Positions 7,603 through 55,808 of a stretch of DNA of 64,000 nucleotides are shown here, piece by piece. The translations under genes were made by a program, and so were the position numbers. Below the pieces are notes generated by a model, which saw only the letters and a list, made by a program, of their open reading frames with translations, was not told the origin of the DNA and ran no database searches. The stretch covers positions 19,267,346 through 19,331,345 of the forward strand of contig CM020618.1 in NCBI GenBank assembly GCA_009829735.1, given 5' to 3'. Numbering within the stretch: the stretch's first letter is position 1; each line of letters opens with the position of its first letter. Source of the stretch: Pyropia yezoensis. Lineage: Eukaryota > Rhodophyta > Bangiophyceae > Bangiales > Bangiaceae.

Positions 7603-8682
7603 CTGGACCAGAGTCCGGACCTTTTCTTCAGTACATTCTAAATGCCATCGAGCGCCGGGTGACGGCAGACGTGCACACGAGATTGAGGTCACCTGAAAGT
7701 TGTGAAGTATTCACAGCATCCGCCCTTTGTTAGGAAGCTCCAATCAGATGCTAGTTTGAGGCTTACATAAAAGTCTACGACGTATCAGAGACCCCCAATC
7801 TTGTGAAAACCCAGATGTCTGCTCAGGAGGGGTCTTATGTGGGCGTGCCAGCTGGTCTGCAGACTCGATGCGCCCGGACATGTTCGCCCTGTCAGCGCAG
7901 TGTGGATGGGACGGGCCATTCCCTTGACCTTGCAATGAAAGCTCTTCAAAGAGGGAGACATGCGGGGGGCGGAGGGGGGCAGCACGGCTGGCCGCCGTAC
8001 CAGCCAGGCAGCTTGGCCATTGCAAACACAGAAGGGAGGGAAGAGCAGGGGGGCCGGTTTCGCAGTGGGGTGGGGTGGGGAGGGGAGAGCAGCGGGTCTC
8101 CCCGGCGGTGCGGCGCGCCCCACGCGTCGTCGGCCTCGCTTCGCGCCGTCCGCCGCACGTCGCCACACCCCTTGAAGTTAACGAAATAGCGGCTGGCCAG
8201 AGGGGCGGGTGGTCTGGCGGCCCGCTGCCGCTCTCCGATCCTGCGGGCGGGATGCCCTGCTACCCGCGGCGGCCCGCCATGCGGGCAAGCGGGTGGTCCG
8301 GGGGGCACACGCCGCGGACGCCTGCCGAGCGGGCGACAGGTACCCCTCGGGGGAGCAACGCGACGCGGGATGAGGGTCGGGCATGCATGGCGCGCGCGCC
8401 GTTGGGCGCACCACCGCGCCAGACAGAAGGAATCCGTCATGACCACGGCTGCTCGTTGGCATGACGGCGGTGTCGGGGGACGTGGAACGGGGATGGGAAC
8501 AACCCTTCCCCTTTCGATACCCCGCTGGCGCGCCAGCTCCGCATTGACAGGCGGGCCCCTTGGGTGCCGCCCCTGCTAGAACATCCCCCCACACTGCCCA
8601 CTACCGTCCACAGCCGCTCGTGGAGACCGCCTCGCTTCCCCCCCCCCCCCCCACCCCCTCCGCCATCCTTCCCCAACGCTTT
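7603..8682. other. No gene seen
   Basis: Spacer between the pogo-type element and the 3' end of the phosphatase gene. It is low-complexity and GC-rich, without credible coding motifs. Confidence 0.6.
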
Positions 8683-13308: not shown

Positions 13309-15231
13309 TCACCCCGCCGTCGCCTTTTCCCCAAACCGGCCCGCCAGGTGGTCCCCCAGCCGGGTGGCCAGCGCCGCGAGCGTCAGCGTCGGGTTGGCTG
13401 CCGGCGACGACGGAAAAACCGACAGGTCACACACGTACACCCCGTCGGTGCCGTGTACGCGGAGGTCCGCGTCGACCACCCCCCCCGACGGGTTGGCGGC
13501 CATGCGCATGGTGCCAACGTCGTGGGCCACCCCGCCGACACCCGCTCGCTGAAGGGGCAGCCCGGCGGGCTCCCCGGGCAGCGGCGTCGCCCGCAGGGAC
13601 TCCATAACCCGCCGCTGCACCGCCGAGGCGCTTGCCACCAGCGCGTCCACGTTGCGCGTGGCGGGCGTGGCGTGGACGCGCATGGGGCGCCCGTCTTCCC
13701 GGCCAGGGGCGGGCGCCACAAAGCCGCCCTCGTCGAGCGGGGACGACGCCAAGAAGACCAGCTCACACAGCTGCGTGGGCCGCCCCTCATCCCGCTCCCG
13801 GCGGTGGGCGGCAAGGATGTCCTCGTCCACGTACCGCCCTTGGTTGTAGTCTGCGCCCAGCTCCAGGATGGCGTTCCACCGGTCCCCCACGGCCGTCGCG
13901 TCGGTGGGGTAGATGACCACCTTGGCCGACGCGTCGTCGGCGTAGAGGGGCGCCCCGGGGGCCACCCCAAAGTGGGTAAACCACACGGGGTGGTCCGTGA
14001 GGCCGTGGCCAAGCGTGCCGCTGCAGTCGGGCAAGGCCGACAGGGCGCCAATCTTGGGCGACTCGAGGGTGCCCGCCGCCAGCACCACCGCCCGTGCGCG
14101 GTAGGTGCGGTCCACGTAGCCCAGCCGGTCAGTGGCGTGGACAGTAAGGGGCTCTCCGGGAGTGCCCGGCGGCGGCACTTCCACCCGCGTCACGTCGTGG
14201 TGGAGGTTGACGGCCAGGTTATCCGAGCCCGCGGGGCCCGAAGTGGCCACCGACTCCATCAGCAGGTCGGCGGTGGAAAAGACGCCCGCGGAGAGGGTGC
14301 GGAGCTCAGATGTCTGCCGCTGCACCGCCATGGGCGCGTCCACCACCGTAAAGGCGGGGCCCAGGAGCTCTGTCAGGTGCGCCTTTGCGGCTTGCTGGTA
14401 GTCAGACGGGCGGGGGGGGCCGACCTTGAGCAGCGCCTCGGCGCGCTCCACGTAGCCACGGCAGAGGAGGTCGTCACGCACGGCGGGGGGCCACTCGGAG
14501 TCCGGCTCGTTATACTCCCACGCCCGCATGCGGGGGGTAAAGGCGCCCCAAAAGACGCTGCGGCCGCCCAGGTTGTACCCGTACGCCCCGCCATATGTCG
14601 AACCAGGCTCGTTGGTAAAGAGGCTGCGCCGAAAGGGCGGCTGGTTGAACAGCCCCCACACGTGCTTGTCAAAGACGCCCACTTGGTGGGCACGGGGCAG
14701 GTTCGCAATGTGGGTGGGGAAGAGGTAAGACCCCGCCTCGAGCACCAGCGTCCGCACCCCCCGGTCGCTCAGCGCGTCGGCCACCACCCCGCCGCCCACG
14801 CCTGACCCCACCACCACCACATCCCACACCCGCTCCGGGTCGAGGGTGGGGGCGAAAAAGGTGCGGGACACCACCCCGGCCTCGGCGTCGGGGAGGGCGG
14901 TGGAGGGGTCAAACACCACCTCCCCGCCGCCGCCCCCACCGGGGCTGGCGGCGGTATATATAACGGCCCCCCCCCCCGGCGGCGGGGGGGTGACCACCAA
15001 GTTGGGGCCGGCCTGCCACACCTCCCGGTCGAGGAGAAACTTGAACTCGGCGGCCTCCCCGGGGCGGGGGCGGGGGAGGAGGAACTCCCAGTAGCCACCG
15101 TCGCCCTTGTAGACGCCAAAGCGGTCGTCGACAACACCCCACCGGGGGGCCACCCGCACGCTCACCGTGTGGTCGGGGGTGTAGGCGGTGGTGGCCAGCC
15201 GCAGCGTCCAGGGGGGGGGCGCCGACGCCAT
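13309..15231 (-). CDS. GMC oxidoreductase with N-terminal CBM20-like domain
   Basis: A flavin-dependent alcohol/sugar dehydrogenase or oxidase of the glucose-methanol-choline family, 640 residues from ATG 15231. Residues about 8-80 look like a starch-binding CBM20 or glycogen-binding beta-sandwich: TVSVRVAP, then GYWEFLLPRPRPGEAAEFKF, then WQAGPNLVV. The FAD Rossmann motif is DVVVVGSGVGGG (137-148) with the ribose-binding Glu at VLEAG (165-167). GGRSVFWGAFTPRM (222-235) and VVLAAGTLESP (382-392) are family blocks. The C-terminal block VAHDVGTMRM supplies the catalytic His570 and SSPAANPTLTLAALA the second active-site position, Asn613. No signal peptide or membrane segment is seen. The frame is open 64 codons upstream, but family-like sequence begins right after this ATG. 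The true substrate is unknown; choline or a sugar is possible. The neighbour at 17464 is divergent. Confidence 0.88.
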   Translation of the reverse strand: MASAPPPWTLRLATTAYTPDHTVSVRVAPRWGVVDDRFGVYKGDGGYWEFLLPRPRPGEAAEFKFLLDREVWQAGPNLVVTPPPPGGGAVIYTAASPGGGGGGEVVFDPSTALPDAEAGVVSRTFFAPTLDPERVWDVVVVGSGVGGGVVADALSDRGVRTLVLEAGSYLFPTHIANLPRAHQVGVFDKHVWGLFNQPPFRRSLFTNEPGSTYGGAYGYNLGGRSVFWGAFTPRMRAWEYNEPDSEWPPAVRDDLLCRGYVERAEALLKVGPPRPSDYQQAAKAHLTELLGPAFTVVDAPMAVQRQTSELRTLSAGVFSTADLLMESVATSGPAGSDNLAVNLHHDVTRVEVPPPGTPGEPLTVHATDRLGYVDRTYRARAVVLAAGTLESPKIGALSALPDCSGTLGHGLTDHPVWFTHFGVAPGAPLYADDASAKVVIYPTDATAVGDRWNAILELGADYNQGRYVDEDILAAHRRERDEGRPTQLCELVFLASSPLDEGGFVAPAPGREDGRPMRVHATPATRNVDALVASASAVQRRVMESLRATPLPGEPAGLPLQRAGVGGVAHDVGTMRMAANPSGGVVDADLRVHGTDGVYVCDLSVFPSSPAANPTLTLAALATRLGDHLAGRFGEKATAG

Positions 15232-17268
15232 GGTGCCCGCAGAACGCGCGACGCCGGCGTCACGGCAACCACGCCCTCTGCTGAGGGGTTGATGGAAAAG
15301 GCGGGCGGGACCGCGGAGGCGTGACGTCGGGTACCTTGAAGGGGGTCGAGTGCCAGGGAGGGGGGTGCGGCTGCGGCGCAAAGCTGTCGGTGGTGGGTGG
15401 GGGAGGGGTGGTTGGGGAGGCATGGGTGCTGGGCCACCCCCCTTTTAAGTTGCCCCACGACGGCCCCCGCCGCGGCCGGGGGTGCGCGCCCAACAAAGCT
15501 CTGGCGCACCTCCGCCCTGGCCTCCGCCCCCGCTTGGAGCTCGCCAGCGGCCAGGCGCGCGGCCCGTGCGGTGTCCCCGCCCACCACGGGAGAACGCAGG
15601 TGGAGGGGGCGGGGGGGCGCCCCTCCCCCCGTCCTCGCGCGACCCCGGCGCCCCACCAACCCCGCAGGGGACCCCCCGCCGCGGCCTGTGCGCAAACGGT
15701 CCAGCACACACCCCATGATGAGATCCACCACGACCAGACGGTGGGTGCGCCCCCGCCGGGGGTCGGCTCCTGGACTGTCACAGCGTTGACCACCCCCCCC
15801 CTCCCCCCCCCCCCCCCCCCCCGGCGCTGCCCGCTGACCCAGTAAGGGGGGGGGGGGGGGGGGGGAGGACTGCCGCCGTGGCAGTGCGCCTGCGGCCGCA
15901 GCCATGCGGCAGGGCAAGGTCGGTGGCGGCGGCTGAGGCGCCAGCGCCCTGTCAAAGCCAAGTTGCCGACACGAGCAGCGGCGGCGGCGGGAAGGGTCAT
16001 CAGCAGCTGAGCTGGCGTCGCCAGCTGGCGCCTGCCGATCACCCCGTGGCTGTGTGTGTCACCACACGACACCGTGTCGCATCCCAAACCCGCACACACG
16101 ATCCCATGATGGGATTCTCAAAGAGGCGTGGACATTGACAAGCTGTCGTAGCTCCCGCCCTCCCTCCCCCCAGCGCTACAGCGGGCAACTCGGCGCTCAC
16201 ACCCCTGGGAAGGTCCCTGGATCACCCGCGCCAGCGGAACAACAAAAAAGTAAGAGGAAGGGAGAGCGCGGACGGCTTCGCAAACAACTGTTTGCAGGGG
16301 CGGGTCAGTTTGTAACGGGGCGGGGCTGCAAGGTCATTGCGGCAGAAGCAGCCCATCCGCATCACGCGGCGGAGCTTCTCTCCCCCCCTCCCGCCTCGAC
16401 CCGCTGGCTCTCTCTCTTCCAGCAGGAGACAGCACGGAACAGGGGGTCGGAACGACGCACGTGGCGGCTGCCCATCAGCGCGGGCAGCGACAGCACTGCA
16501 GCGCACCTCCGATCGAGCGCGGGAGTGTACCCTGTACATTATCCTGCTCGTCGCGCTATCATGCTGCGCAAGATCACCGAAAATTGCTGCCCCCGAATCC
16601 CAAGTCGACACCCATGTGTAAGTCTTTGGAGTACTTCCTATCCAACCTGATGGGGCCAAACAGGAAAGGAATGGAGGGGAACGCCATGCTGACTGCTGAC
16701 GCACCACGTGGAGAGGGTCCCGAGTACTCGACGTATCCACGATTGAATGGAGCAGAGTGCTCATCCATTCCCAGGTCCTTGGCCGCAGGAGGTGCTTCCC
16801 GTGGCCGGCCCAGGTCCGTTTGATCGGGCGAGGTCAGACACGTCCGCGCGAGTCCCTCCCCTGCGCTGGGCCCCCGTGTCGCCCGTTGGCGTTGCCTATC
16901 GCCCGTTGACGTGTTCCCAAAATCATCGATCAGCCGCGCAGGAACGTCAGCCGTCGGGCCCGTCTTTGCGCCGGTCCAGCCGCACCCTACGATACCATGC
17001 ATTTATTCGGGTCGCAAGAGGGCATTCGCATAGCGGGCCGCCCGCCGCACGGTGCGGCGCAGGGTCGTTGCGCGACTGAGAGCAATGCGAAGGGCCCCCT
17101 CTCCCGGGGCCCTGGAATGCGGGTCAATGACAAGGAGCTTGGCCCGCCAGACGTGAGCGTCTTCGCGGCAGCCTACCCGGGGCGGGCCACGAAGCTCGCA
17201 CCTCATTTGCACGCTTTGATGTTGGCCCTTGCCGTTCGCTGTGTCCTCTGGGAGGGACCGCCCGTGCC
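15232..17268. other. Divergent intergenic region, no gene seen
   Basis: About 2 kb between the divergent GMC and methyltransferase genes, presumably holding both promoters. It contains long C and G runs at about 15788-15822 and 15846-15865. Open frames on both strands are compositional and show no motif. Confidence 0.55.
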
Positions 17269-17276: not shown

Positions 17277-17463
17277 CCACTGTGGTGACTGGCGCCCAGA
17301 CGTAAAGCATTCCTTCACCTTGGTCAATGCACCACAGCCACCACGTCGCGTGCGCTGCCATCCTTCTTGTGCGTCGCCGCGACCACGTCGGTCACCCCCT
17401 CTCCTTGGCGGTCCCTCCCCTCCTTGCCGGTCCTTCCCGCTCTTCCCCCCCCGTTTGTTGGCC

Positions 17464-18456
17464 ATGACGGGCGACAGCAACGGGACGGCGACAGCCGCGC
17501 TGCGGCCCACCCGCATTGACGACGTGCAGGACCTGTACGACGGGCCCGCGTCTGCCCAGTTCTACGCCATCATCGTTGGGGACGGGGGCCCCCACGTGCA
17601 CACGGGCGTCTACCGGTCGGCCACCGACACCACCCGCGCCGCGGCTGAGTACTCCTGCACGATGCTCCGGGCGCTGGCGGAGAGCGCCGGTGCCGTCTTT
17701 CGCCCCGGGGTGCGGGTGCTGGACCTGGGTTCGGGCGTTGGCGGGGCGGCGCGGAAGCTCGTCACCGAGACCGGTGTGGCAGTCACGTGCTTGAATTTGT
17801 GTGGCAAGCAGAACGCGCAGAACAAGGCGGCGACGGCCGCGGCGGGCCTCGAGGACCGCATCACCATTGTAGAGGGCTCCTTTGAGGAGCTCCCCGCCGA
17901 CTGGACCGCCTCCTTTGATGTTGTGTGGTCCCAAGACGCATTTTGCCACTCCAACCTCAAGGCGCAGGTGTATGCCGAGGTGGCGCGCGTGCTCGTCCCC
18001 GGCGGCTTCCTGATGCTCACCGACCTGATGGCGGGGGAGACGGCCTCGCCAGAGGCGATGGCCCCCTTTTGTGCGCGCCTTCGCGTGGACGAGCTCCTAA
18101 CCATGACCCAGTATGAGGCGGCGCTGGCTTCGGTGGGGATCACGACCCTCCGTACCCGTGACCTTACCGCCCACCTACTGCCAAACTACCGGCGGATGGT
18201 CCAGCGGCTGACCACCGAGCGGGCCCGCCTCGACTGCTGCTCGGACGCGTTTGTGGAGCACGTGCGGGGGCTCCTGCTGGGCAGCATTGAGGTGATGGGG
18301 GAGGGGGAGGCCCAGACGTGGGCCGCCCTCGTCGCCCGCAAGGAGGTCCCCCCCCGTGGCGTCGGGGACGGCGAGACCACCGCCACCGCTGCCGGGTTGC
18401 CGGCGGTGGCGCCGGCGGCCGCGGGCAATGGCGTTGACGGCGCGTCTTGCGGGTGA
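17464..18456 (+). CDS. Sarcosine/dimethylglycine-type N-methyltransferase
   Basis: A class I SAM-dependent methyltransferase, 330 residues, closest in motif order to sarcosine/dimethylglycine N-methyltransferases, which make the osmolyte glycine betaine. Visible blocks are: DLYDGPASAQFYAIIVGDGG (24-43) and HTGVY (46-50), typical of the family's start; motif I VRVLDLGSGVGGAAR (83-97), binding SAM; CLNLCGKQNAQN (109-120); ITIVEGSFEELP (133-144); FDVVWSQDAFCHS (151-163); and LVPGGFLMLTDLM (177-189). The last 40 residues are a Thr/Ala-rich tail without counterpart. ATG 17464 has a good context (GCCATGA) and directly precedes the homologous region. A tocopherol or phosphoethanolamine methyltransferase is the main alternative. 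Location is likely cytosolic, since no targeting signal is evident. Confidence 0.85.
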   Translation: MTGDSNGTATAALRPTRIDDVQDLYDGPASAQFYAIIVGDGGPHVHTGVYRSATDTTRAAAEYSCTMLRALAESAGAVFRPGVRVLDLGSGVGGAARKLVTETGVAVTCLNLCGKQNAQNKAATAAAGLEDRITIVEGSFEELPADWTASFDVVWSQDAFCHSNLKAQVYAEVARVLVPGGFLMLTDLMAGETASPEAMAPFCARLRVDELLTMTQYEAALASVGITTLRTRDLTAHLLPNYRRMVQRLTTERARLDCCSDAFVEHVRGLLLGSIEVMGEGEAQTWAALVARKEVPPRGVGDGETTATAAGLPAVAPAAAGNGVDGASCG

Positions 18457-19479: not shown

Positions 19480-19765
19480 CGCTCGACTAAAACGACTAAA
19501 ACGCGATGTTTCAGTCGAGCGCTATTGCCCGGATTATCGGATCGTAGGGTATGCACGTTTATTTATGGTATTGCAATTGTAGTAACTATCGGTTAAACCC
19601 CTCCGGGAAACATCCGACTCATCCTGGGAAAGGTCCCCGGGAAAATCCGGCGTCTAACCTACTAGTGAACGGCCGACAATTACCCATAATTGGCTCGTCG
19701 GCGAAAAAGGGGGCGGCTGACGCACCCCGTGGTAGGTGAGGGTCACGGGCAAGATGTGCGCTGTC
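19480..19765 (-). ncRNA. Candidate guide (omega) RNA region of the Fanzor locus
   Basis: Directly downstream of the Fanzor stop (minus strand) lies noncoding DNA clearly less GC-rich than its surroundings. It contains a 14-bp inverted repeat (19480-19493 with 19508-19521, one mismatch, 14-base loop) and two similar CGGGAAA-ATCCG blocks at about 19603-19614 and 19638-19651. In Fanzor and TnpB systems the guide RNA is made from the 3' end of the nuclease gene and the following noncoding end of the element, so position and structure fit. There is no direct evidence of transcription, and no terminal repeat marks the element's end. Confidence 0.3.
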
Positions 19766-22700
19766 TTAGCGTCTTGCAGTGTCCACCAGACCACGGGGCG
19801 CGTCTATCGCCCCCGTCTCCGCCCGACGCACCCCGTCCATGGCACTGCCGGCCGCCGCCACCTGTTCCCCACCAGGAGCACCGCGTCGCGTCGTACAGGG
19901 CGCCGCCGTCGCGTCGCCGTCGACAACCCCCCTACCGCCACCGCCACCGCCACCGCCACCGCCACCGCCACCGCCACCACCACCGTCGACGACAGTGTCC
20001 ACTGCAGCCAGTACGGGCCATACATCGACCCGCGTAGTCGCACGGGTGCGACGTACAGGCGGGACGGGAACACCACTGGGAGGACGCTTGGTCGTCCAGG
20101 CCCACCTCATACCAAACGGGCGCTTGAAAGGCCACACGTTGGTGCCCGTGAGACGACGAGCGGCCACCCACGCAATGTTGCGGGCCGCAACGTCGTCCCG
20201 ATTGCGAATCACGGGCGGGTGTGGCGCTGGGTGACCGGGGCCTTGTGGGGCCGCGAGAGAGCACGTGTAGCAGCCCTTGGCCGCCCACTCGCTCAGCCGC
20301 CTCGGGTCGGCATAGACGGCGCGATCCTCGACGGCACAGGCGGCCAGCGCGGCCGCGCGCCGCGCCACAGAAGCAGCACGGGCAGTGGCTCGGACGGCCG
20401 CCCGGTAGGCGTCGGGGTCTGGCCCTCGGCGCGTCACGTGGGTAGCAGAGGGGAGGGCCCGCTTTGGCCGCCCCCGACGCGACCCAGCCGCCATCCGCAC
20501 ACGCCGTGTCCACGGCAGAGGGCCGGCCGGCGGCCCATACAGCTCTCTTGGAATCTTGGGGGGGGAGTTGCCCGTCGAGTAGATGAGCACCATCTTGTCG
20601 TGACACTCGGAGCACGCCTTGCTCGTGTTGAACTCGTCCTGGTCGACAAACCAGCACAGCCGTCGGAGGTGGCGGCGGAGCCAGGCGTCCCCCCCGCGCA
20701 CGCGCGCGGTGCCCATGGCCACGACGACCGCGCCGCCGCCACGGACCTGGCGAAGGAGGCCGCCGGTCAGGTCCCGCGCCACCGAGGCAGCAAAGCGACC
20801 GCGTTGGATGGCCTTGCGCACACGCGCCGCCCGCAGGTGTCGCGTGGCTTGCGCGCCAAATCGCTGGCCGTACGCGGCCGTGTCCCGACGGGCGGCCCAC
20901 TCGAGCGTTGCCTGCCGGTGCTTGCCGTCGTCGCCGGTACGCATCGTGCCGTGTGCTGCTGCCAGGTCGACGGGTGGTAGGTGGCCAGCGACGCCGCCTC
21001 CGTCACCCGCCGCCGCCACAAGTCCCGCCACCGCCACCGCCACCGGTACCCCCTCAGTACCGCTGCATGCCCGCCACTGCTTCCACGCACGGGCCAAAAA
21101 GTAACCGCCGCTGGCCTCGCGAAAGTGGGCGGCACTCAGGCTGTAGCGAAGGCCGGGGACGGGTGTCAGTCGACGACACCCCTTGCGCCGGGGCAGCGCG
21201 TCCACCCGGTCCTGCAGCGGCGCGTCTAGGGTGGTGCCGCCGTCACTGTCGCCCGCCGCGGCAGTGGGGTCCACCAGCCACCGTGCCACCTTTTCCGCCT
21301 CGTCACGGGGCACAGTCCACCGGGACAGGCGCGTGCGACGCAGCACACGCCGCACCGAGGTGGCGAGCTGGGTGCGGCGGGCCCGTCGGATGGACGCCTG
21401 CGGCCCACGCCGCACGCGCCCGTGGCCACCGCCGGGGCTCGCCGTCTGGTAGGTCTTTGCCTCGGGGGGCGTCGTCGCACCCGCCGCCGCCGGGGCCACC
21501 GCCGCCGCATCATCGTCGCTGCCCTCGGGTGACGACCGCCGCGCTTGTCGCTTGGAACGGCTCCCCCCTGTCCCCGCCCCTGCAGCCGGGGCGCCCGCCG
21601 CCGCCCGCTTCCTAGACCCCCTGGGTGGGTGGCCGTCGGGGACGGTTGCGGCTGCCGCCACCCCGTCTTGGACGCCCGCCCCACGCAGGAGCGCCACGGC
21701 CGCCCGGTTGAGCGCGTCCAAGCCCATGTGGCGGGACCATGCGGCGCGCATCGCGGCTACAGCGGGGCGGGCTGGGAGGTCTGCCGTTGCCACGCGCTCA
21801 CCCGGTGCTGCCGACAGTACGGCAGACCGTCCCGGGTCTCCGCCGACCATCTGGAGCCACCGGACGCGCGCCAACGGCAGGCCAGCCCGCTCGAGCTGCG
21901 TCAGTACCCCCGCCCGGGACGCAAAGCCTTTGCCGCCGCGGTCCCGCGCACGTCCACCGCCGTCCAGCTTCTTGGCCGAGGCCACCGCCCGCGCCTCGGC
22001 CTCTGCGGCCGTGTCGGGTCGAGACAGAAAAAACGTCACCGCCACGCCGTCGGTAGACAGCTGGGAGGCGGCCCGGTTGGCGCGGCCACCGACACCAGCC
22101 ATGACGGCCAGCACCGCTGCACCGCCCGTTCGCAGCTCTGGCCATACCCGAAGACTGGGGTGGCCACGCACCCCTACGCCAGTGGCGGCCGAAACTGCCC
22201 GCAACAGGGCGAGCATCTTGTCCGGCACCAGCGTGCTGTGACCGTGGAGCACCGCTCGGGCTCCAGGGATGAGGGCGTACGGGCTCCCCACACCCACATT
22301 CAGGACGTGGAGGAGAAACGGCACGTACGCCCACCAGCGGCGCTTCTTCACAGGCGTTGCTGGAAAGAGGCCCGCCACAGAGGGTGGCATGGCCGCCCTC
22401 ATGACGGCTACCCGTTGCGCCAGCGCCTGGACCAGGTGCTGGGGGACGCCGTCGAGGCCCCGCCGGCCCGGCGTTGCCTTGTCCGCGGTACCCGCGCGGA
22501 AGCGCGCGGCCGCCCACCGCGTCAGCCGCCGCTCCGTGTCCCAGGCAGAGCCGCTCGCTGGAGCAGGCGTGGCAGCGGGGGAGGTGGCCAGCGCGTCCTT
22601 GGCCGCCTTGGCGCCCAGCTTGCGACACGCCGCGTCCACACACCGCCCGGCGTGGGTGGCCACGATGGTGGCGACGGGCTCCCATCGTGCCGTGTTGTTG

Positions 22701-23173
22701 CTCGCTGGAAGATACCGGTCGCACGCAGCTGCCGTGACAGCCATCACCTGCGTCAGGGCGTAGGAGAGCGCCTCTGCCAGCAGCGGGTGGCTCGTTGTCA
22801 CCACAGAGCGGGCGCGCGCCATCCGCGTGTTGGCCCGCCCCTTGCCACAGCCCGCACACACGGTGCCCGCCTGCAGGGGACTGCCAGACACACCCTCGCA
22901 GCCGCAGGCGTAGGCCAACCACAGCAAGACGGGCGCCCAGTTTGCGGGCACGGCCCCCGTCCAGTCGGCGTCGTCGGCGGCTGCGTCCGCGACGGTCGAC
23001 ACCAGGCGGCGCAATGCCACGTCGAGGACGCGGAGCATGAGGAAGCGGAGCTTGGTAGCCGCCCCAGAGAGGTCCTCCAGCTCTGCTTTCAGCGCCGTCT
23101 CCACCGCCGCGCGCGTGTCAGCGTCGTCCTTGTCGTCCCCAAACACCGCCCTTGCCAGGACGCCCACCGGCAC
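19766..23173 (-). CDS. Fanzor: eukaryotic TnpB-like RNA-guided nuclease
   Basis: Fanzors are RuvC-type nucleases related to IS605 TnpB and Cas12, usually carried on eukaryotic or viral transposons and guided by an RNA from the same locus. Counting from the first codon of this open stretch (23173, a GTG), the motifs are: a CxC...CxxC cluster (90-109); STDGVAVTFFLS (373-384); RuvC-I MVGGDPGRSAVL (442-453; Asp446); a basic linker with KRxxR patches (520-546), a likely nuclear signal; RuvC-II-like GGGAVVVAMG (812-821); WFVDQDEFNTSKACSEC (841-857) with the relocated catalytic Glu847 known in Fanzors plus the first zinc CxxC; the second CxxC GCYTC (967-971); and RuvC-III RDDVAARNIAWVA (992-1004; Asp993). 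All catalytic and zinc residues look present. A Gly run near 1063-1080 comes from a CCACCG repeat. No ATG stands at the start; the frame is open upstream to a TGA at 23219 beyond which a zinc-knuckle segment continues in the same frame. Confidence 0.85.
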   Translation of the reverse strand: MPVGVLARAVFGDDKDDADTRAAVETALKAELEDLSGAATKLRFLMLRVLDVALRRLVSTVADAAADDADWTGAVPANWAPVLLWLAYACGCEGVSGSPLQAGTVCAGCGKGRANTRMARARSVVTTSHPLLAEALSYALTQVMAVTAAACDRYLPASNNTARWEPVATIVATHAGRCVDAACRKLGAKAAKDALATSPAATPAPASGSAWDTERRLTRWAAARFRAGTADKATPGRRGLDGVPQHLVQALAQRVAVMRAAMPPSVAGLFPATPVKKRRWWAYVPFLLHVLNVGVGSPYALIPGARAVLHGHSTLVPDKMLALLRAVSAATGVGVRGHPSLRVWPELRTGGAAVLAVMAGVGGRANRAASQLSTDGVAVTFFLSRPDTAAEAEARAVASAKKLDGGGRARDRGGKGFASRAGVLTQLERAGLPLARVRWLQMVGGDPGRSAVLSAAPGERVATADLPARPAVAAMRAAWSRHMGLDALNRAAVALLRGAGVQDGVAAAATVPDGHPPRGSRKRAAAGAPAAGAGTGGSRSKRQARRSSPEGSDDDAAAVAPAAAGATTPPEAKTYQTASPGGGHGRVRRGPQASIRRARRTQLATSVRRVLRRTRLSRWTVPRDEAEKVARWLVDPTAAAGDSDGGTTLDAPLQDRVDALPRRKGCRRLTPVPGLRYSLSAAHFREASGGYFLARAWKQWRACSGTEGVPVAVAVAGLVAAAGDGGGVAGHLPPVDLAAAHGTMRTGDDGKHRQATLEWAARRDTAAYGQRFGAQATRHLRAARVRKAIQRGRFAASVARDLTGGLLRQVRGGGAVVVAMGTARVRGGDAWLRRHLRRLCWFVDQDEFNTSKACSECHDKMVLIYSTGNSPPKIPRELYGPPAGPLPWTRRVRMAAGSRRGRPKRALPSATHVTRRGPDPDAYRAAVRATARAASVARRAAALAACAVEDRAVYADPRRLSEWAAKGCYTCSLAAPQGPGHPAPHPPVIRNRDDVAARNIAWVAARRLTGTNVWPFKRPFGMRWAWTTKRPPSGVPVPPVRRTRATTRVDVWPVLAAVDTVVDGGGGGGGGGGGGGGGGGRGVVDGDATAAPCTTRRGAPGGEQVAAAGSAMDGVRRAETGAIDAPRGLVDTARR
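19934..19983 (+). repeat. (CCACCG)n microsatellite
   Basis: About eight hexamer units encode the polyglycine run in the C-terminal tail of the Fanzor protein. It lies downstream of RuvC-III, so length change should not affect the nuclease core. Confidence 0.85.
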
Positions 23174-23218
23174 GGTACACGCCCGCGTCTGCCGTCCAGT
23201 GCTCTGAAGCGGGTCCTT

Positions 23219-23962
23219 TCAGTCGGGGTCGACGCCGCGGTCGTAGGCCGCTGGCACGCCCCCACAGTGCCGCTGCACCGGGCAGGCGGCGTCCCCGCTG
23301 CTGTGGCCCCCTCCCAGGCAGTCGCGACACTTGGACGCGGCCGCCGCCGCCGCCGCCGGGACGGCGGCGGCAGCAGCAGCGGCGGCGGCAGCGGCTGCCG
23401 GCCCTGCACCAGCCGGGGCCTTGCAAGAGGTGACCTTGTGGCCGGGCTCGCCACATCCGCTACACGTTTGCGTCCGCCCCTTGCGGGCGGGCGGTGCGTC
23501 AGTGGCAGCCTCGCGCCGGGGCAAGCCCGCGGCGGCCACGCCAATCAGCCCAGCGGCCGTCTTGGCGCGTGCGGTGAGCTCCACCTCGGCCTCGCTTGGC
23601 GCCGCCCGACCACCACAGTACACGCTGACCGCCTGTGCCGCGCCTGTGATGACCGCGACGAGGTCCTCGCCGGCGCAGTCGAGGGGGCCCGCCGCCTCCT
23701 CATCCTTGGCCGCCCGCTGCAACTGCGCGACGGCGGCAGACCAGTCGGCCGACGAGGCCGCGTCGCCCCCGTGGGGTGCAGACACGCCCTGCAGGCGGCT
23801 CAGGTTGGCGGCGAGCACCGCCCGCTTGAGCTTCACCACGTTGCGTGCGTCTTGAACGTACGCCTGCTCTTGTGCCGGGTCCCACTCCTCGTCCGAGGTG
23901 GTGTCGCCGTCCAGCCCGTCGACGCCAATGTCTTGGTCGCTGCCGTCGTCATCATCGTTCAT
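23219..23962 (-). CDS. Zinc-knuckle segment in frame with the Fanzor gene
   Basis: The ATG at 23962 opens a 247-residue protein starting MNDDDDGSDQD. It has an acidic N-terminus, a helical middle (about residues 30-130) and two Cys/His knuckles: CSGCGEPGHKVTSC (C-x2-C-x3-GH-x4-C) and CRDCLGGGHSSGDAAC (C-x2-C-x4-GH-x5-C), separated by an alanine run. It ends in DRGVDPD and a TGA at 23219-23221. The Fanzor frame follows in the same phase, beginning 15 codons later with no ATG near its start, so this is probably its true N-terminal part. A GT...AG span of 54 bases (23257-23204 on the minus strand) would remove the stop and keep the frame; stop read-through or a nonsense mutation are alternatives. 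Knuckles of this type bind nucleic acid. Confidence 0.6.
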   Translation of the reverse strand: MNDDDDGSDQDIGVDGLDGDTTSDEEWDPAQEQAYVQDARNVVKLKRAVLAANLSRLQGVSAPHGGDAASSADWSAAVAQLQRAAKDEEAAGPLDCAGEDLVAVITGAAQAVSVYCGGRAAPSEAEVELTARAKTAAGLIGVAAAGLPRREAATDAPPARKGRTQTCSGCGEPGHKVTSCKAPAGAGPAAAAAAAAAAAAVPAAAAAAASKCRDCLGGGHSSGDAACPVQRHCGGVPAAYDRGVDPD

Positions 23963-23970
23963 CGTGAATC

Positions 23971-24049
23971 CGGGGGGGGGGGGGGGGGGGGGTGGGGGGG
24001 GAGGGGGGGTTTTGGGGGGGGGGAGGGGTGGGGGGGGGGGGGGGGGGTG
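23971..24049. repeat. Long G tract just upstream of the start codon
   Basis: Nearly unbroken G (C on the coding strand) begins 8 bases before the ATG at 23962. It would make the mRNA leader very C-rich; the other strand could form quadruplexes. Confidence 0.8.
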
Positions 24050-25589
24050 GGATTGTCGACGGTGGCTGATGGGGTCGGCAAAGATGGGGAACCACGGGGC
24101 ACCACCTACCGCCCTATTTATCGTCTGGCAAGGCACCATCCGGGCCGGGGTCCTCACTCGCTGCCGTACGCGTGCTGTAGACGCTGGCGATGGGCTACAC
24201 GGGCCGTCAGGATGCCGGCGGTCCAGGTCCTCCCAAGCCCCCCCCCCCGCCCCCCCCCCCGCCCCCCCCCCCCCCGCCCCCCCCCCCCCCGCCCCCCCCC
24301 GCCCGCCCCCCCCCCCCGCCCCCCTCCTCTCCCCCCCGCCGCCCGCCCCCCGCCACCCCCAAACCGACGCTACCTCTCGGGCAGGGGGCAGAACGGAGGA
24401 TGCTCGCACCGCCACGTGCCCCCGTGGGCTGTCGCGTGGCCTTAGCTCACCGCCCCGGAAATTAAAGATCCTTCTCATCGCCGAGGCACCCGTGGCCGAC
24501 GGTGGCTGCCGTGAGAGTGTCCTGTGGCGCGGCGGCGGTGGTGGTGGAGGGGCTCGCGGTGGCGGTGGTGGGGCTGGCGGTGGTGGTGTGGCGGCGGCGG
24601 TGGTGGTGATGGGGTTGGCGGCCCAATTGCAGACCGCGCACTGACGCTGTGCTCATGGCAGCCGCCAGTAGCACGACGGTGGGTGCGGGACGGAGTGCAC
24701 CGCATGCACTGCGGCATTTGAGCCGACTGACACGCCAGCATCCGTGCGGCTCGCCCAACCAAGGCGAGCGAGCGCCCCCCCCCCCCCCCCCCCCCCCCCC
24801 CCGCTCCAGACGGCACGTATTGGGAGAGTGACCGCCACCGTGCTGCGGGACAATAACAACACTGCAATTGAACCCACCCTCGGCACTGCCTGCTCGCCAC
24901 GGTGCATGTGGGGCGGCGTGTTGGGACGCGGGCACCCAGCCTTTTGGTGCTTCCGGCAGGCCCCGTCCGTTTGCAATGCATTACGAGCACCGTTTGGGAA
25001 AAATGTCATCCTGGACGTTTTGGTGGGGGGGGAGGGGGGGCAGTCGTGTACCTCAAACCCACCGCCACAGACGGCATTGCCATGCTGCGAGCTCACCGCG
25101 CGGTGCCTCCAAATGGCCTGTCACCAGCACACGACACCGCGCGGGCCGCGTGGACCTACGGCTCTCGTCAGACCCGGGGGGCGCCGAGGGAAGCGACTGA
25201 CCGGACCTGCCTGTCGCTGAACGTGCGGCCGACGGATGAGAGCACCCATCCCCGGACACCCCCGTCACCGTCCAATTCAACATCATCTCGCGCCGCCGCC
25301 CAAATCCCCTCCCCTCCCGTTCGATCCGCGTCAGTGTCAGCCGGTGGTCGGGGATTTCAGATAACGAAATTCAATTCGTCCCCCCTCCCCCGCCCGTCGC
25401 CCTCTCTTTATGGATTCCCCCCCCACCATGACGCAATCGGAAGACACTAATTCACGCGCCCACACAAAAGAACAACTATGTGACCGCCCAGCTCGTACCG
25501 TTATGCACCTAACGCGAGACGTCAGCTCTGGCGAACAATGTCTACAAAGATCCGAAGAGCGTTACGTGCAGTCGGTACCCAATATTATC
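24050..25589. other. No gene seen; C-rich tract and short repeats
   Basis: Upstream flank of the Fanzor gene. It holds a CCCCCCCGCC-type tract at 24239-24333 and a C-run at 24775-24802. A pair of CAATATTATCC units follows at about 25580-25600, next to a 9-bp inverted repeat ATCCGTACG/CGTACGGAT (25598-25606 and 25622-25630). No credible coding sequence. Confidence 0.5.
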
Positions 25590-26910
25590 CCAATATTATC
25601 CGTACGGCGAAAAACGAGATTCGTACGGATCGATTTGACAACAGGCCACCCATCAAATCCAGGCCCTGGGCTGGACAATACCTCGTGCTAGCACCCCCAG
25701 CGTAGCGGGTCTTAAACAGTGTATCTTATTTTCCGTGCCGGCACGTGCGCGCACTGTCGAATGCCTGTTTGCAGGCCCCGCGGGCCCGGGCGTCGCCGCT
25801 TCTGCAAAGCCGTAAAATTTCACATTGTCAGCGGTGCACGCCTTGGCATCATGTAAAACGCTGCAGGGCATGCACAATTTGAAGTGCGGCCCTGGTCGCG
25901 CAAAACACCGTGCCTGCAGCAACATTCACAAACACGTGAATGCCGTGCCCGTCGCATGCATTGCATTGCGCGGTCACGTGAGGAAGCCTGCACAGCAGTG
26001 CAGCAGTGCAGCACCAGCGACTGACACCATTTGGGCACGTCATGAAACGTGGATATTGCTGCATAGACACGTACTCTCGGGTCACGGTCGCCTTGTTGTG
26101 CGCCCCGCGGCACGCCTTTCCGGCGAGACGGACACAGGCCGTGGGAATGAAGGCCTTGCCGTCCTGATGACGGTCGTCGAGGAGAGAAAAAAAAAAAAAA
26201 GAGTAGGAAGCACGGTCACAACGCGGCCGTGTGCGCTCTTGCACGCGGAAATCGGGCTTTACGGGGCCCCTGGGCGCCCCCCTGCAATCCACTGCCCGCC
26301 TGTTTGGGCCCGATGCACGGAAAACAAGATACACGGTTTTAGATCCGCTGCGCAGCGGCTATCACACCCCCCATGCGACAGGGCGTCGACTCCACGAGAG
26401 ACTTGAAAAACGAAGCAGGAATGGCGTCCCACCCGTCGCGCAGAGCCATCCAGCCGCGGTGCGCTGTGGCCCACACAAGGCGCTTGGCGACGTTCTTGGC
26501 AGACAGGAAGGGTTTTTTGGCCGCTTCCCCCTGGAGTGGAAACCCAAGCTCCAGACGGCCCTGCGGACAGCGGAGACTGACACTGGTCCCTTCTCGGGCC
26601 CTCTGGTCGCTTGGGTGCGCGTGTTATTCACCATCTCCTTCAGGGATGCCACAGAGGAAAACCCGTCGGTGTCAAGCGCCCGCTTGAGGTTACAGAGCTC
26701 ACGGTCCGTCAAAACCTTGGGGCGACCCCGCTTGTCCACCCTGGCGCGGGCGGACTCCGTGCGGATGGCCCATAGCTGCGTAGGCGATGATGCTCTTGGA
26801 GCGCCCCAAATCCGTACCGATGGCCCGGAAGGACCACTTCTGTTGGAGGAGGCCAGTTATGACCCCGCGCGCTCACAGTCGGACAGAGAGCGACGTGATG
26901 AGCCCGCCAT
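25590..26910 (-). mobile_element. Tc1/mariner relic lacking the catalytic core
   Basis: From ATG 26910 (MAGSSRRSLSDCERAG) a first helix-turn-helix reads LLQQKWSFRAIGTDLGRSKS. The second domain has KRGRPKVLTDRELCNLKR and SVSAVRRAVWSLGF, the usual N-terminal pair of Tc1/IS630 transposases. After a frame change at the A-run near 26513-26518 it continues SAKNVAKRLVWATAHRGW, where the DDE domain should begin, but jumps straight to WDAIPASFFKSLVESTPCRM, the C-terminal block. The roughly 150-residue catalytic domain is missing, so this copy cannot encode an active transposase. The last residues (GVIA ... GGASTRY) are split by a MITE at 25698-26355. Its own terminal repeats were not identified. Confidence 0.7.
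25698..26355. mobile_element. MITE inserted in the Tc1/mariner relic
   Basis: A 658-bp segment bounded by 41-bp inverted repeats (25698-25738 and 26315-26355; 35 of 41 positions match) with ends like C(T/A)GCGCAGCGG(A/G)TCT. It has no coding capacity. The transposase sequence outside it joins in frame on both sides (VIA before, GGASTRY after), showing that it jumped into the older element. The same end sequence bounds the element at 35800-35956. Confidence 0.7.
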
Positions 26911-27689: not shown

Positions 27690-30461
27690 TTAATCAGGCT
27701 CTTGTGTATCGGGGGTGGTGGAACCCGTCTTTTGCGCCCGATCGTCGGCCGGCAGGCGGGAGGTGTCTGTCACTTGCAGCCCTCCAAAGCGAATAGGCTG
27801 TCCCGGATGGTTTAGCCACGCGGGTGTTCCAAACCCCTCCTCATGGCGGGCCTTGGGCCCGCGCCCGTCCGACCATATGCCAATGTGCCGGTAAAAGACT
27901 TCTCGGAGGAGGGTCCATAACAGCGGCCGCATGCGGTACTGCAAGGAGACGATGACGCAAGCGGACAGAAACCTGGCGAGCCGCTCAAAAACGCTGGATG
28001 CCATCGGCCGTGTCTCGCCCCTGTACTCCATGCCTGCGCTCGGCCTCAGCTGGGCATTGTCGCCAACAAGGACAATGCACTTGGTCCGCTCTGCCGGATG
28101 ACCGTCCTCTTCTTCATCTGACGAGCCACCCGCACGCCCCGCCCGCTTGGCGCGAACAATGGCGGCGACAGACGCAGGGACGCTTTTTGCCGCACCCTCT
28201 TCAATGATAATGGCGTCAAAGCCTTGACCCCCCACGAGCGCCCCCGTCGACGTTGACGTGGTTGTGACAATGACGGACGCGCCGCCCACGATGCGCTTGC
28301 GGAGCTCCCGTTCCGCACGCTGCTGGCGACGCAAGGCAGCCTCCAGGGCTTGCTCCGCATCGGCACATTCTTCGAGGAGGTTTTGTGACCCACCCGCGCC
28401 CGGCTCTGCACCCTGGGTGCGGGAACGATCCACACGACGGCCCACATCGGTCACCCGTGCCCTTGCCCGTTCCACCGCGGCTGTCACGGACGGGTAGGCG
28501 ACAGGAAGGCGCTTGTCCACCACGGCGTCAATGTGCGTTGTCTTCGCACAATGGCCATTCGGAGGGGGTTCACCCGCACGGAGGAGCGTCACGGCATCGG
28601 GTTTCGCGACGCCGTGTCGACTGGCAGCCCCCGACGGACAGAACAACTCGTGCACTGCGTCCAACAGCTCGTCGCCCGCCGTGTTGGTGCGCGACGTCAG
28701 CAGGACCCGCCCGTCTGGCAGGGTCCCAAGTACCATGTCCACCATGGAGACAATGGCGCGTGTCTTGCCCGTCCCGGGGGGGCCCGTCACCAGCTGCACG
28801 TCACACTCGTCCGGCAACAGCCCCTGGAGCATGCAATCGACTGCGCGCCACTGGAACTCGTCCAGGTGGGCGTAGCGTGGAGGAGCACTCTGCAGGGGGG
28901 GAGGCCCCGGTGCCGGTACAGGTACCACCTGCTGTCCCCCGTGCGGAGGCGCTGCGTGGATGGTGAGCGCCCTCTGCATGACTGGCGGAAGAAGGTCCCA
29001 GTGGCCGAGGCCGCCAAACTTGCGGCTGTCCGACAGGACACTATGAGACAGGGTGACGACCACATTCGCCGTCCCGCGATTGAGCCTCCGCCGCACGTCT
29101 GAACGACGCACCGCAAACCACCACCGCCGGGGGGGACTGGATGCGCCACCGTGGCGCGCCGTGACGGCGTCATCGTCCCCCTCGTCCAGCCCCGGGCCAG
29201 GCGTCCTGTCCACCCACCACTGGCCTGCCTCCGCGGGCGGTGGCCCCTCAACCCCCCCGCCGGGTTGCCCCTCCTTGTCCTCGCAGCGGCCAATAAACAC
29301 GGCGTCCACGGGGGTGCTGCACACCGAGCCGACGGGTTCCGGTACCCGAAAGGCACACAAATCACCCGGGGTGGCGTCTGTGGGGTCCACTTGACACTCT
29401 CCCCCGCGGTCCTTGTGGCGGCGATGGTGGCGGCCGCCCCCACCGGGGGGACCACCCCGGGGGGTGGGCATACGCACGAGCACGTTGCACATGCGACACG
29501 CCCGCGGGTCGTCCAAGATGGAGCCCCCCACCTGCGGCGACGACAGGGTGATGGGCGCGTCGATGCGAGCCACGCCAAAGCGGGAGCACAATGAAGACGT
29601 GGTCACGCGCCCACTGCGTCCGCCGCCGCCGCCATGGCCCTTGTTGCTCCCTTCGATAGACTGCTCCACCGCATCTGTACCGCGGGCGGCTAGCTGACAC
29701 AAGGTGGCGACAACGATGGCCTGCCAGCGGCCCCCAGGTCCTCTTGCGTACAACGGGGACGGGCGCTGGTGGGTTGGGACACCCGTCCACCCAGACTCGG
29801 ACGTACAGAGCGTCAGCTGACCGAGCGCCACCCGATCACCATCCGCTCCACACAGTGTGGGAGGAATGGCCTGGCTGGCACCACCCCCCGCCGCCGCCGC
29901 CGCCGCCGCGGGCAGAGGTGCTGCAGTGGAAGACGCGTCCCCCCCACCACCCGGGAAACTGATACAAGGACCTCCCACGCCGGCAGTCCCACCTCCAACA
30001 ACAGCCGCTTCCGCGTCTGCAACTGCAGGCAAAGCGCAAGAGGGCTCCTCCCCCCGAGCCACTGCCGTGCCCACCGCAGCCACCCCCGCCGTGTCAGTTG
30101 CTGCAGCAGTACCAGGTTCAGCAGGTGGACCTCCGCCAACACCCGCGTCGGCCACGTCCGCCGTGCCCGCAGGAGCCCCACCAACGCCAGGAGCGCTCAC
30201 AGCCACAGCATCCATTGCGCCTGTGGCTATACCCGCCGCCGATGGAGCATCGGGAGCAGCAGCGGTAACAGCAACCTCGGGCGTAGAGAGCCCGCCTGGG
30301 ACGGCTGCCGTCGCGGAGGAGGTGGCAGCTACAGTCGCGACAGAGGTGGCAGCACTCTGAGCTACTGCCACATGGGCGGCCGCCCCAGTGGCGGAGGACG
30401 TGCGCCGCTGCACGACCAGGTGGCCGGCCCGGACCACCCGGGCCACACTGACGACAGTCAC
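27690..30461 (-). CDS. UPF1/ZNFX1-like SF1 helicase, main portion
   Basis: Motifs in residue numbers of this piece: LDEFQWRAV (533-541, Q-motif-like), Walker A GPPGTGKT (560-567), RTNTAGDEL (591-599, motif Ia), FDAIIIEEGAA (748-758, Walker B; the usual DEA is EEG here), VLVGDNAQLRP (797-807, motif III) and VSLQYRMRP (838-846, motif IV). An arginine-rich helical insert (665-722) lies between motifs Ia and II, as in UPF1-like proteins. The first 200 residues are Ala/Val/Gly-rich and disordered; CRMC (322-325) may bind zinc. Proteins of this group unwind RNA or RNA-DNA in decay, silencing or R-loop removal; which role applies is unknown. It has no ATG of its own: the frame is open upstream to a stop at 30483, before which the protein is acidic (IDDDDD), and the acidic run resumes after the stop, so the pieces were once, or still are, one protein. 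Confidence 0.78.
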   Translation of the reverse strand: MTVVSVARVVRAGHLVVQRRTSSATGAAAHVAVAQSAATSVATVAATSSATAAVPGGLSTPEVAVTAAAPDAPSAAGIATGAMDAVAVSAPGVGGAPAGTADVADAGVGGGPPAEPGTAAATDTAGVAAVGTAVARGEEPSCALPAVADAEAAVVGGGTAGVGGPCISFPGGGGDASSTAAPLPAAAAAAAGGGASQAIPPTLCGADGDRVALGQLTLCTSESGWTGVPTHQRPSPLYARGPGGRWQAIVVATLCQLAARGTDAVEQSIEGSNKGHGGGGGRSGRVTTSSLCSRFGVARIDAPITLSSPQVGGSILDDPRACRMCNVLVRMPTPRGGPPGGGGRHHRRHKDRGGECQVDPTDATPGDLCAFRVPEPVGSVCSTPVDAVFIGRCEDKEGQPGGGVEGPPPAEAGQWWVDRTPGPGLDEGDDDAVTARHGGASSPPRRWWFAVRRSDVRRRLNRGTANVVVTLSHSVLSDSRKFGGLGHWDLLPPVMQRALTIHAAPPHGGQQVVPVPAPGPPPLQSAPPRYAHLDEFQWRAVDCMLQGLLPDECDVQLVTGPPGTGKTRAIVSMVDMVLGTLPDGRVLLTSRTNTAGDELLDAVHELFCPSGAASRHGVAKPDAVTLLRAGEPPPNGHCAKTTHIDAVVDKRLPVAYPSVTAAVERARARVTDVGRRVDRSRTQGAEPGAGGSQNLLEECADAEQALEAALRRQQRAERELRKRIVGGASVIVTTTSTSTGALVGGQGFDAIIIEEGAAKSVPASVAAIVRAKRAGRAGGSSDEEEDGHPAERTKCIVLVGDNAQLRPSAGMEYRGETRPMASSVFERLARFLSACVIVSLQYRMRPLLWTLLREVFYRHIGIWSDGRGPKARHEEGFGTPAWLNHPGQPIRFGGLQVTDTSRLPADDRAQKTGSTTPDTQEPD

Positions 30462-30929: not shown

Positions 30930-30983
30930 ACTCCTTAGCTTGTGCAGGGCCTGAGAGGTATTCTCCCCATCTCGTCCAAGATG

Positions 30984-42602: not shown

Positions 42603-42670
42603 GCACGCAGCACGGGCAGCACAGAAACACAGGGAGCAGTGGGCCCGGGTGGGCGGGGTGGGGGGGGGGT

Positions 42671-44244: not shown

Positions 44245-45270
44245 AGGATGTGCTTGTGGGTTTGACAGGCGGATGGGTTTTCATAGGAGCATGTCAAGAG
44301 AGGTATGGCGGTGTGAGGTCTCCGCATTCTCAGCCGCGACTCCCCGACTCTGTAAAGGGACCGTGAGGCGACGAACGTGCCGACCGGCGCCAGAAACCCC
44401 CATCAGCTGCAGCTCCGCATTCAGCAAGACAGAGACCTGGCGCGCGGCCTGGTCCTGCGATCTTGTGACGGCCCTGGACGGGCTTGGAAAACCGTCGGTC
44501 GGGAGTGGAAGGGGGAGCTGCTCCCTCCCCATCTGGGCGTGGGGAGGGCCGCCTGAGTGGCAAGTGGGTCGCTGGTCGTGGCTGCGGCGTGATCAACATC
44601 GATTGCCCTCCTCTCTTCCCCCCCGGCGGACACGCCCGGTAAGGGGGCATTGCCCGGCTTGCTGGGGCGGGACTTCCGGACTTTGCACTTGCGGGATTTT
44701 GGCGCGACGAGCGGCGGTTGGCGCCGGTCGACCCGTTTCATCTGCGGGGTGGCCTGCTGGCCAGGTCGTGCCACCTTGCTCCCCTCCGCAGCTCTCCCGC
44801 GGCCTGGGGAGTGCGGCTGGCCCTACGGTCCGCCGCGCGCACCTGACCGTTTCTCCTGTTGCGGCCGGTCGTTGCCACCGACCTCTGCTGGGTGACGGCG
44901 CCCCACCCATCTCTGCTGGCTGACGGCGCCCGCCCGCCGCTCCGGAGCCCACCGGCCGCACGCTGCCCCCTTTTCCTACTTGGCGGCCGGCCCTGCAAGC
45001 CGAGGCCGCCCCCCCGGTGGGCGGCAGTGTCCTTTGGCTTGCCCCACGCCCCTCTCCTCCCCGCGCTGGGTGGCGCGCTGCCGGGTCGGGCGCCCCTTCT
45101 CCTTGCTTGTTTGAAGATGGTTTCTCACCTCTGCTTGGTTGGTTTTTCTTTCAACCAACTCCTAGCTCAGTCATGCGATAAAGTCTGCGCTATTGGCACA
45201 CCGACCCCCCTCAAGCTACTGTAGTTAAACGTGCTTTGTTATAATTACGGACTGCCACGTCCGTCGCCTC
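44245..45270. other. No gene seen
   Basis: Downstream flank of the 234-residue gene. A GTTGGTT/AACCAAC inverted repeat at about 45137-45160 could be an RNA 3'-end hairpin. Open frames are short and motif-free. Confidence 0.5.
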
Positions 45271-45402
45271 CACCGACTGCCACGTCCCGGGTGGCCGGTG
45301 CACGCATAATGGATATGCGGCGACCCGGCCGGGTGGGGATCCGGCCAGCCGCGTCCGTGAAAGACTTTGCCGTGGGCGGCTCCCCGCCTGCGGTCGCCCG
45401 CG
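45271..45402 (+). repeat. Direct repeat, left copy (132 bp)
   Basis: It matches 55271-55402 without gaps with only about four differences, in the same orientation. A further short block, AACGTGCTTTGTTAT, stands just upstream of both copies. The pair encloses NYN copy B and the Ulp1 gene. Confidence 0.9.
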
Positions 45403-45917
45403 ACCGGACGCAGAGTGGGTGACCCCTGCACGGCCCACGACGAGGCGTCGTCCAGCGTCACGGTGTATGTCGTCCCCTTCCCGCCCCCTCCTCCCCGCGC
45501 GACTTCCACCCCGAGTGTGCGGAGTGTGCACGCGGCCGGCGCACGTGAGGTAGCAAAAGGGATGTACAATCAGAACGTTTTTTGCTGTGGATGGGGGATG
45601 TGAGCGGGCCACCACGGGGTCCAAGTGCCCCACGCTTTGGCGGCACGGACCGGCGGGGCGGTTGCTCTGCCGTCCCGTACGCCCTCCACATGCTGCCGTC
45701 CTCGACGCCTGTCGCCGAGGCCGTCCACGACGGTGAAACCTGTCCAGTAGTACCTCCAATCCCCACCCCGCACCCGCCCGCCCCCCCCCTCCCCCACCCC
45801 CCCCCCCTCCCCCCCTCCCCCCCCCCTCCCCCCCCCCCCACGGCCCCCATACAGATCTCACGCACACGGTGCGGATGGTACTCCACAGAGGACCATGAAC
45901 GGAGCACCCCTCAGGTG

Positions 45918-55794: not shown

Positions 55795-55808
55795 TATCCC
55801 CCCCTTAG
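55795..55808 (-). promoter_or_regulatory. Polypurine tract
   Basis: CTAAGGGGGGGATA on the minus strand directly precedes the LTR, as required for plus-strand DNA priming in LTR elements. Confidence 0.65.

Follow-up and report, generated by a model that had tools for sequence, protein, structure and literature searches.

In TnpB nucleases the catalytic Glu sits on the strand that precedes the zinc domain, and the elements encoding them are 1–2 kb long and also code for an HUH transposase. Three Fanzor1 proteins with solved structures, SpuFz1 (8gkh), GtFz1 (9cer) and PpFz1 (9cf0), share a TDG block, a DP[GN] motif and a relocated Glu within E-x-x-T-S-x-x-C-x-x-C. Most Fanzor1 proteins have 600–700 residues and the RuvC insertion of PpFz1 has ~100 (PMC11423790). 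They are often borne by transposable elements, some of them chimeric, and Fanzor1 is already known from a red alga, Cyanidioschyzon merolae, in which CMe-1A is a ~3-kb element of 150 copies that lacks terminal inverted repeats and whose class is not known (PMC3627910). Here we describe a gene with the same sequence blocks in a 64,000-nt stretch of the red alga Pyropia yezoensis (the window; GenBank assembly GCA_009829735.1, contig CM020618.1, positions 19,267,346–19,331,345). Judged from these blocks, its product is quite likely a RuvC nuclease of Fanzor1 descent. The gene belongs to an element that is repeated in the genome and has a sharply defined 3' end. With moderate confidence we extend this to a fuller reading, in which a divergent, oversized (~1400-residue) Fanzor1-type nuclease is the 3'-terminal gene of a giant element and would be guided by the element's own flank.

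The gene occupies positions 19766–23962 on the minus strand (1398 codons plus stop), with an ATG at 23962 as the likely start, the stop at 19766–19768 and GC content of 0.76, 0.63 and 0.79 at the three codon positions. The same coordinates had been given in an earlier, sequence-only reading of the window, as one unbroken frame. The coordinates stand; the frame is interrupted by an in-frame TGA at codon 248 (23219–23221), where two relatives read Cys: P0001 from P. yezoensis, with 799 identities in 840 aligned residues, and P0002, with 677 in 1074. Because of this Cys, selenocysteine was considered for the TGA codon and rejected: the window has no Rfam match at gathering score and no SECIS, and the TGA is likelier a plain stop. 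Downstream of it, a 1135-aa open reading frame (ORF) begins at a GTG at 23173. The putative catalytic residues were originally numbered from this GTG as D446, E847 and D993; counted from the ATG, the same residues are D709, E1110 and D1256.

The motif strings quoted in the sequence-only reading all lie on the minus strand, in the same frame and in the expected order. To describe their conservation we compared 21 copies of the gene, the window copy and 20 further ones taken with their flanks. A TDGVAVT block (codons 637–643, 22034–22054) resembles the Fanzor1 TDG block, which stands ahead of RuvC-I in all four Fanzor1 proteins compared; the TDG pattern occurs a single time among the window's 1097 open stretches. 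RuvC-I (GGDPGRS, 21824–21844) contains D709, with the DPG pattern in 20 of the 21 copies. It is followed, still within RuvC, by a low-complexity basic insertion (approximately codons 735–919, 21206–21760), which goes with a long spacing between D709 and the next acidic residue. This is the proposed catalytic Glu, E1110, in EFNTSKACSEC (20603–20635), a segment that also includes the first CxxC of the zinc domain. By eye, Glu is missing from its usual TnpB position (VVVAMGTA), so that the window protein differs from TnpB in having it relocated. The second CxxC, CYTC (20261–20272), is kept in 20 copies and the first in all 21. RuvC-III (NRDDVAARNI, 20174–20203) contains D1256, with NRD in 20 copies and HRD in one. 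Overall, the RuvC-I Asp, the relocated Glu before the zinc domain and the third Asp in NR[DN] are present in order and retained in 20, 20 and 21 copies, respectively. Closer to the N-terminus lie two zinc knuckles, a CCHC one (CX2CX4HX4C, codons 167–180, 23423–23464) and a CCHC-like one (CX2CX4HX6C, codons 212–227, 23282–23329), each with its pattern in 20 of the 21 copies. The large size and the basic linker had been pointed out before and are both borne out; the two knuckles, the TDG block, the element boundary and the repeat family described below are additions to that account.

The arrangement D..E..[TS][TS]xxCxxC..CxxC..RDxxAxxN matched one of the 629 open stretches in the window that are 60 aa or longer. 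It was absent from all 300 shuffled sets of those stretches, in which the Glu-TS-Cys part alone arose 16 times and the RD part five times, and from 100,000 shuffles of the 1135-aa protein (Glu-TS-Cys part three times). The strict whole pattern including TDG is found in 16 of the 21 copies and in no other open stretch of the window. We also built a Fanzor1 hidden Markov model (HMM) from 44 sequences. With it, the nuclease ORF came out ahead of every other open stretch of the window (the next scored 0.3 bits); the model aligned two blocks in the correct order, TDG and then DEFNTS..C..C. The best of 13 family proteins scored 9.7 bits with it, the best of 1313 reversed or shuffled decoys 0.7 bits.

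The P. yezoensis genome has 53 matches to the nuclease protein, a lower bound; merged by hand (11 C-terminal scraps and one split locus), they correspond to 41 loci or more, spread over three contigs. The other loci are 87–97% identical to the window copy. The matched part has no stop in 22 of the 41 loci, the window copy among them, its stop lying ahead of the query. All 21 copies compared have a single sharp 3' end in common, at window position 19584, which reads ...GGGGTTTAACCGATAGTT with small variations, and beyond it the outer 300-bp flanks show similarity in none of 210 pairs. The nuclease is the gene at this end. The sequence-only reading had suggested a stand-alone, host-kept copy. 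That no transposase was identified alongside the gene agrees with such a copy; the number and likeness of the loci, the one element end with unrelated flanks and the stop carried by the window copy itself refute it.

Between the stop codon and the boundary, 182 nt here, lies a non-coding tail (19584–19765, minus strand), a candidate ωRNA scaffold or terminal recognition site. The stop-to-end distance is 182 nt in 18 of 20 copies and 181 and 174 nt in the other two (copy L043 excluded). Mean pairwise difference in the tail is 0.016 over the 20 copies, compared with a synonymous divergence (dS) of 0.046 among the 12 intact copies, synonymous sites being the sole reference. Variation this low would be expected of a guide-RNA scaffold or of a terminal recognition site. 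A nuclease near the 3' end, a short conserved tail and a flank unique to each copy are likewise found with TnpB of IS200/IS605 elements (ISDra2), which are far smaller than the element described here. A conserved non-coding end that adjoins the nuclease gene and is followed by a copy-specific flank is equally expected of a transposon end without a guide, and terminal recognition by a transposase would fit the geometry of the tail too.

The guide-RNA role that we propose for the tail is drawn by analogy with TnpB and Fanzor (PMC10432273). The conserved tail would serve as the ωRNA scaffold and the host sequence immediately beyond the element as the guide, and every copy would thereby specify the site at which it had inserted. 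Should the element leave that site or fail to occupy it, cleavage of the vacant site by the nuclease, followed by repair templated on a filled copy, would put the element back; this is the model proposed for TnpB.

A number of results weigh against this reading. For the tail, they are the single reference class mentioned above, an ordinary fold (z −1.06) and a consensus structure in which no cell is compensatory, 6 are one-sided and 8 broken, counted among near-identical copies. For the protein, they begin with the profiles: no curated one reaches its cut-off, and the zinc-domain profile Pfam PF07282 gives 15.7 bits against 26.3. This profile matches four of 13 family members at E ≤ 1 (best 0.0049). 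Our 44-sequence HMM scores the window protein at just 4.5 bits, and hhalign returns a P-value of 0.0022 yet a probability of 13%. An HMM of 35 columns, derived from three Fanzor1 proteins, did place the ORF first in the window (5.4 bits, E 1.1); we dropped it as support because several decoys of a ten-fold shuffled set scored higher (best 9.5 bits). Searches of the PDB with family profiles retrieved no Fanzor, giving first nothing and then two chance-like matches, and the best PDB matches of the window protein itself (the best 60 of 242) are low-complexity Gly-rich linkers. The earlier call of a Fanzor-type nuclease holds for the motif blocks, which match those of the three solved Fanzor1 proteins in order, and reaches no curated profile cut-off; the profile search proposed at that time as a check was not cleanly passed.

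Other searches were also negative. NCBIfam has no match for P0002 or the window protein; PHROGs has none for the window protein and two for P0002 at E 0.3–0.4. A peptide-pattern search of viral and prokaryote contigs found no relatives of this nuclease family. As a reference we used a 655-aa Fanzor1 on an IMG/VR viral contig (L003:1833–3797), which matches PpFz1, SpuFz1 and GtFz1 at 4e-35, 3e-34 and 4e-23 and reaches 28.7 bits with PF07282. Of 7998 candidates scored, 1476 are related to this reference at E ≤ 1e-5, and contigs of up to 510 kb occur among the 120 matches listed.

Spacing sets the protein further apart. From the TDG block to the RuvC-I Asp there are 72 residues, compared with 50–55 in four Fanzor1 proteins by regular expression. 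Two larger deviations belong with the points above: 401 residues from Asp to Glu against 157–173 in four Fanzor1 proteins, and 146 from Glu to the third Asp against 44–63 in three, the third motif of SpuFz1 having escaped the pattern and the PpFz1 and GtFz1 strings being joined pieces. The pattern of Bao and Jurka, D-X(125,275)-[TS][TS]xx-[C4 zinc finger]-X(5,50)-RD (PMC3627910), does not match: its blocks are present in order and the last gap of 20 fits, the first being ~403. The window protein is also about 1400 residues long, has two N-terminal zinc knuckles, 110 residues between its CxxC pairs and a RuvC insertion longer than that of PpFz1, and stays below profile cut-offs. It might be argued that the likeness arose by chance or convergence, in a zinc-knuckle transposon protein unrelated to TnpB and Fanzor. 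The absence of any profile match above cut-off and the shuffled decoys that outscored the window ORF with the short HMM speak for this. Against it stand a number of distinct blocks that share one frame, follow the expected order and are kept in copies and relatives, and we consider this explanation very improbable.

Fanzor1 descent leaves room for a protein that has lost nuclease activity. Twelve of the 21 copies have an uninterrupted reading frame between ATG and stop (1387–1414 codons). The ratio of nonsynonymous to synonymous divergence (dN/dS) among them is 0.45 overall (66 pairs), with the lowest value, 0.125, at codons 690–734 around RuvC-I and 0.17 at codons 1265–1299; the basic linker, at 0.94, evolves almost neutrally. 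Eight broken copies give 0.52 (28 pairs; L043 was excluded from these counts), so close to the intact ones that much of this signal reflects shared history. This value belongs on the negative side of the balance, as do the TGA in the window copy, the loss of one zinc Cys in P0002 (KACVSAA, which leaves the second CxxC incomplete) and the absence of Glu in P0006 and copy L043. A Fanzor1 descendant without nuclease activity, acting as a nucleic-acid-binding zinc-knuckle protein, for instance a transposition or regulatory factor, would account for the defects of P0002, P0006 and L043, in the last two a replacement of Glu, and also for the distorted spacings and the two added zinc knuckles. It is at odds with the retention of the three acidic residues in nearly all copies and with the lowest dN/dS lying in the RuvC-I block. 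On balance we regard loss of activity as unlikely and retain the reading of a Fanzor1-type nuclease.

The element that carries this nuclease is far larger than the gene. Its part within the window spans 35.8 kb (19584–55431, minus strand). Homology upstream of the gene reaches 25.3–27.6 kb in the fetched copies, and genome searches with more distant window segments trace it further: 30.5–31.0 kb has 40 matches, 32.2–32.9 kb has 43 at 40 loci, and 37.0–37.6 kb has 47. Among the 18 matches to 44.3–45.0 kb, nine (window included) are at least 88% identical across the whole query; of the 47 to 51.6–52.3 kb, 14 (window included) are at least 86% identical over at least 680 bases; and 54.7–55.4 kb is found at 16 loci (window included) besides an abundant repeat. 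Fewer loci therefore have the 5' half of the element than have the 3' half. A retrotransposon-like repeat, ~99% identical in all 40 matches scored, interrupts the window copy at 55432, and other copies continue past this point. The repeat, inserted into the giant element, fills the window from 55432 to 64000 and has a gypsy-type Pol at 59297–63388 (minus strand); its 57600–58900 part is ~99% identical in 39 other scored genome matches.

Two copies resemble each other over ~45.3 and ~44.4 kb, measured from the 3' end, lengths that may include nested insertions. We report the element length only as a lower bound of ~44–45 kb, because a ~300-bp unit recurs near the apparent 5' end and the true one may be farther out. 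A 5' end at 'TGTAATG..' (L065:3126) looked clean in two copies and was rejected, as the unit recurs several times at some loci. The unit (up to ~300 bp; 45247–45407, 55263–55385 and L065:3126–3420) recurs within the element, repeatedly near its 5' region, and may represent a small nested element or a promoter used in common. The 5' regions read, those of two copies, gave no match to the 3' end in inverted orientation.

The copies are not uniform. At 32.2–32.9 kb, 22 of the 40 loci (window included) are at least 93% identical to the window and 18 are 76–80% identical. Seven of those 18 loci (near L026, L027, L029, L030, L032, L036 and L038) nevertheless adjoin nuclease genes that are 95–97% identical. 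At 30.5–31.0 kb the same seven split into five at 90–91% and two at 78–79%, so the elements are mosaic. From these comparisons, the nuclease cassette (~19584–25423) either postdates the divergence of the elements that carry it or has been exchanged.

Besides the nuclease, the element codes for a superfamily 1 helicase (27690–30461, minus strand; AAA_11, 70.1 bits, cut-off 27), situated between repeated segments. In the copy on contig C3, upstream of the point at which the window copy is cut, there are an N6_N4_Mtase match (26.9 bits, cut-off 26.7) and two sub-threshold SET-domain halves. An ORF in L063 looks ParB-like by eye and had no Pfam match. Its size (~44 kb or more), the helicase, the N6/N4 DNA methylase and the weak matches to SET halves might suggest that the carrier is an integrated large DNA virus or a virus-derived element. 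The scanned ORFs include no capsid, polymerase or packaging gene, a weak argument as most had no good match, and a search of the phage collection found no relative of the helicase. A viral carrier is, in our judgment, distinctly unlikely, and we continue to treat the element as a transposon.

Among the ORFs scanned, most of which had no good Pfam match, none was recognised as a transposase that would serve the whole element, and this too counts against the reading proposed here; no KDZ or EnSpm transposase was seen among them. The sequence-only reading had seen no transposase in the element. None has indeed been identified that would serve it, but a broken Tc1/mariner-like transposase fragment lies inside (approximately 26350–26739, minus strand), seen by eye and without a Pfam match for the pieces tried; the matching part of copy L031 gives HTH_Tnp_Tc3_2 at E 0.0028 and 18.3 bits, against a cut-off of 31.5.

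Like CMe-1A, the element is multi-copy, of unknown class and apparently without terminal inverted repeats; unlike CMe-1A (PMC3627910), it is ~44 kb or more long and carries other genes. For GtFz1, NlovFz2 and MmeFz2, neither inverted repeats nor a link to a transposase were found (PMC10432273). In size the present element is comparable with the giant KDZ and EnSpm transposons of Ectocarpus, which span tens of kilobases with nested insertions fixed in copies (PMC12477816), and it may be set beside the enlarged EnSpm elements of the red alga Chondrus, with 16–20 kb and 4–5 ORFs (PMC6431247). The main text of the Ectocarpus paper mentions neither Fanzor nor TnpB, a search of PMC10711439 gave no red-algal term, and among the matches listed from open-licence literature no title or abstract opening describes this element. 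We tentatively suggest, as a proposal that may well prove wrong in part, a group of giant transposons in red algae, ~44 kb or more in length and not described before, with an oversized, flank-guided Fanzor1 at the 3' end bearing zinc knuckles of the RNA-binding type, and with at least two diverged, partly mosaic subfamilies sharing a young nuclease cassette, as if passed between them.

Several further features were noted in and around the element. At 30973–30977 the window copy is without ~233 bp that all 12 fetched copies carry, and a 946-bp direct duplication (41681–42626 and 50328–51267, 97.6% identical) lies inside the giant element. Two facing 20-bp repeats at 25719–26334 (GTGTATCTTNTTTTCCGTGC; none of 100 shuffles had as many) resemble the ends of a small nested element; as ends of the Fanzor element they were ruled out, being internal to the giant one. 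Hairpins at 19480–19521 and 25598–25630 had suggested a 6-kb Helitron2-like element, a reading rejected because the first hairpin lies beyond the boundary common to the 21 copies. This hairpin (14-bp arms, 13 paired) is in the host flank, just past the 3' end of the element. Neighbours outside the element are a SAM methyltransferase (17320–18456, plus strand) and a GMC oxidoreductase (13309–15423, minus strand). The L031 copy lies close to a host gene, since a COX17 copper-chaperone match (L031 ~7858–7986, 57.4 bits) lies ~0.6 kb beyond its 3' end.

The family bears on the question of why Fanzor is retained in eukaryotes. It has 41 or more loci in a cultivated edible alga, and the 21 copies compared, 12 of them intact, have a common end and differing flanks; the idea that the nuclease helps its element to stay put thereby becomes directly testable. 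If the reading proposed here is right, the family would also add to Fanzor1 a size class of about twice the usual length, with N-terminal zinc knuckles, and would tie Fanzor to giant transposons.

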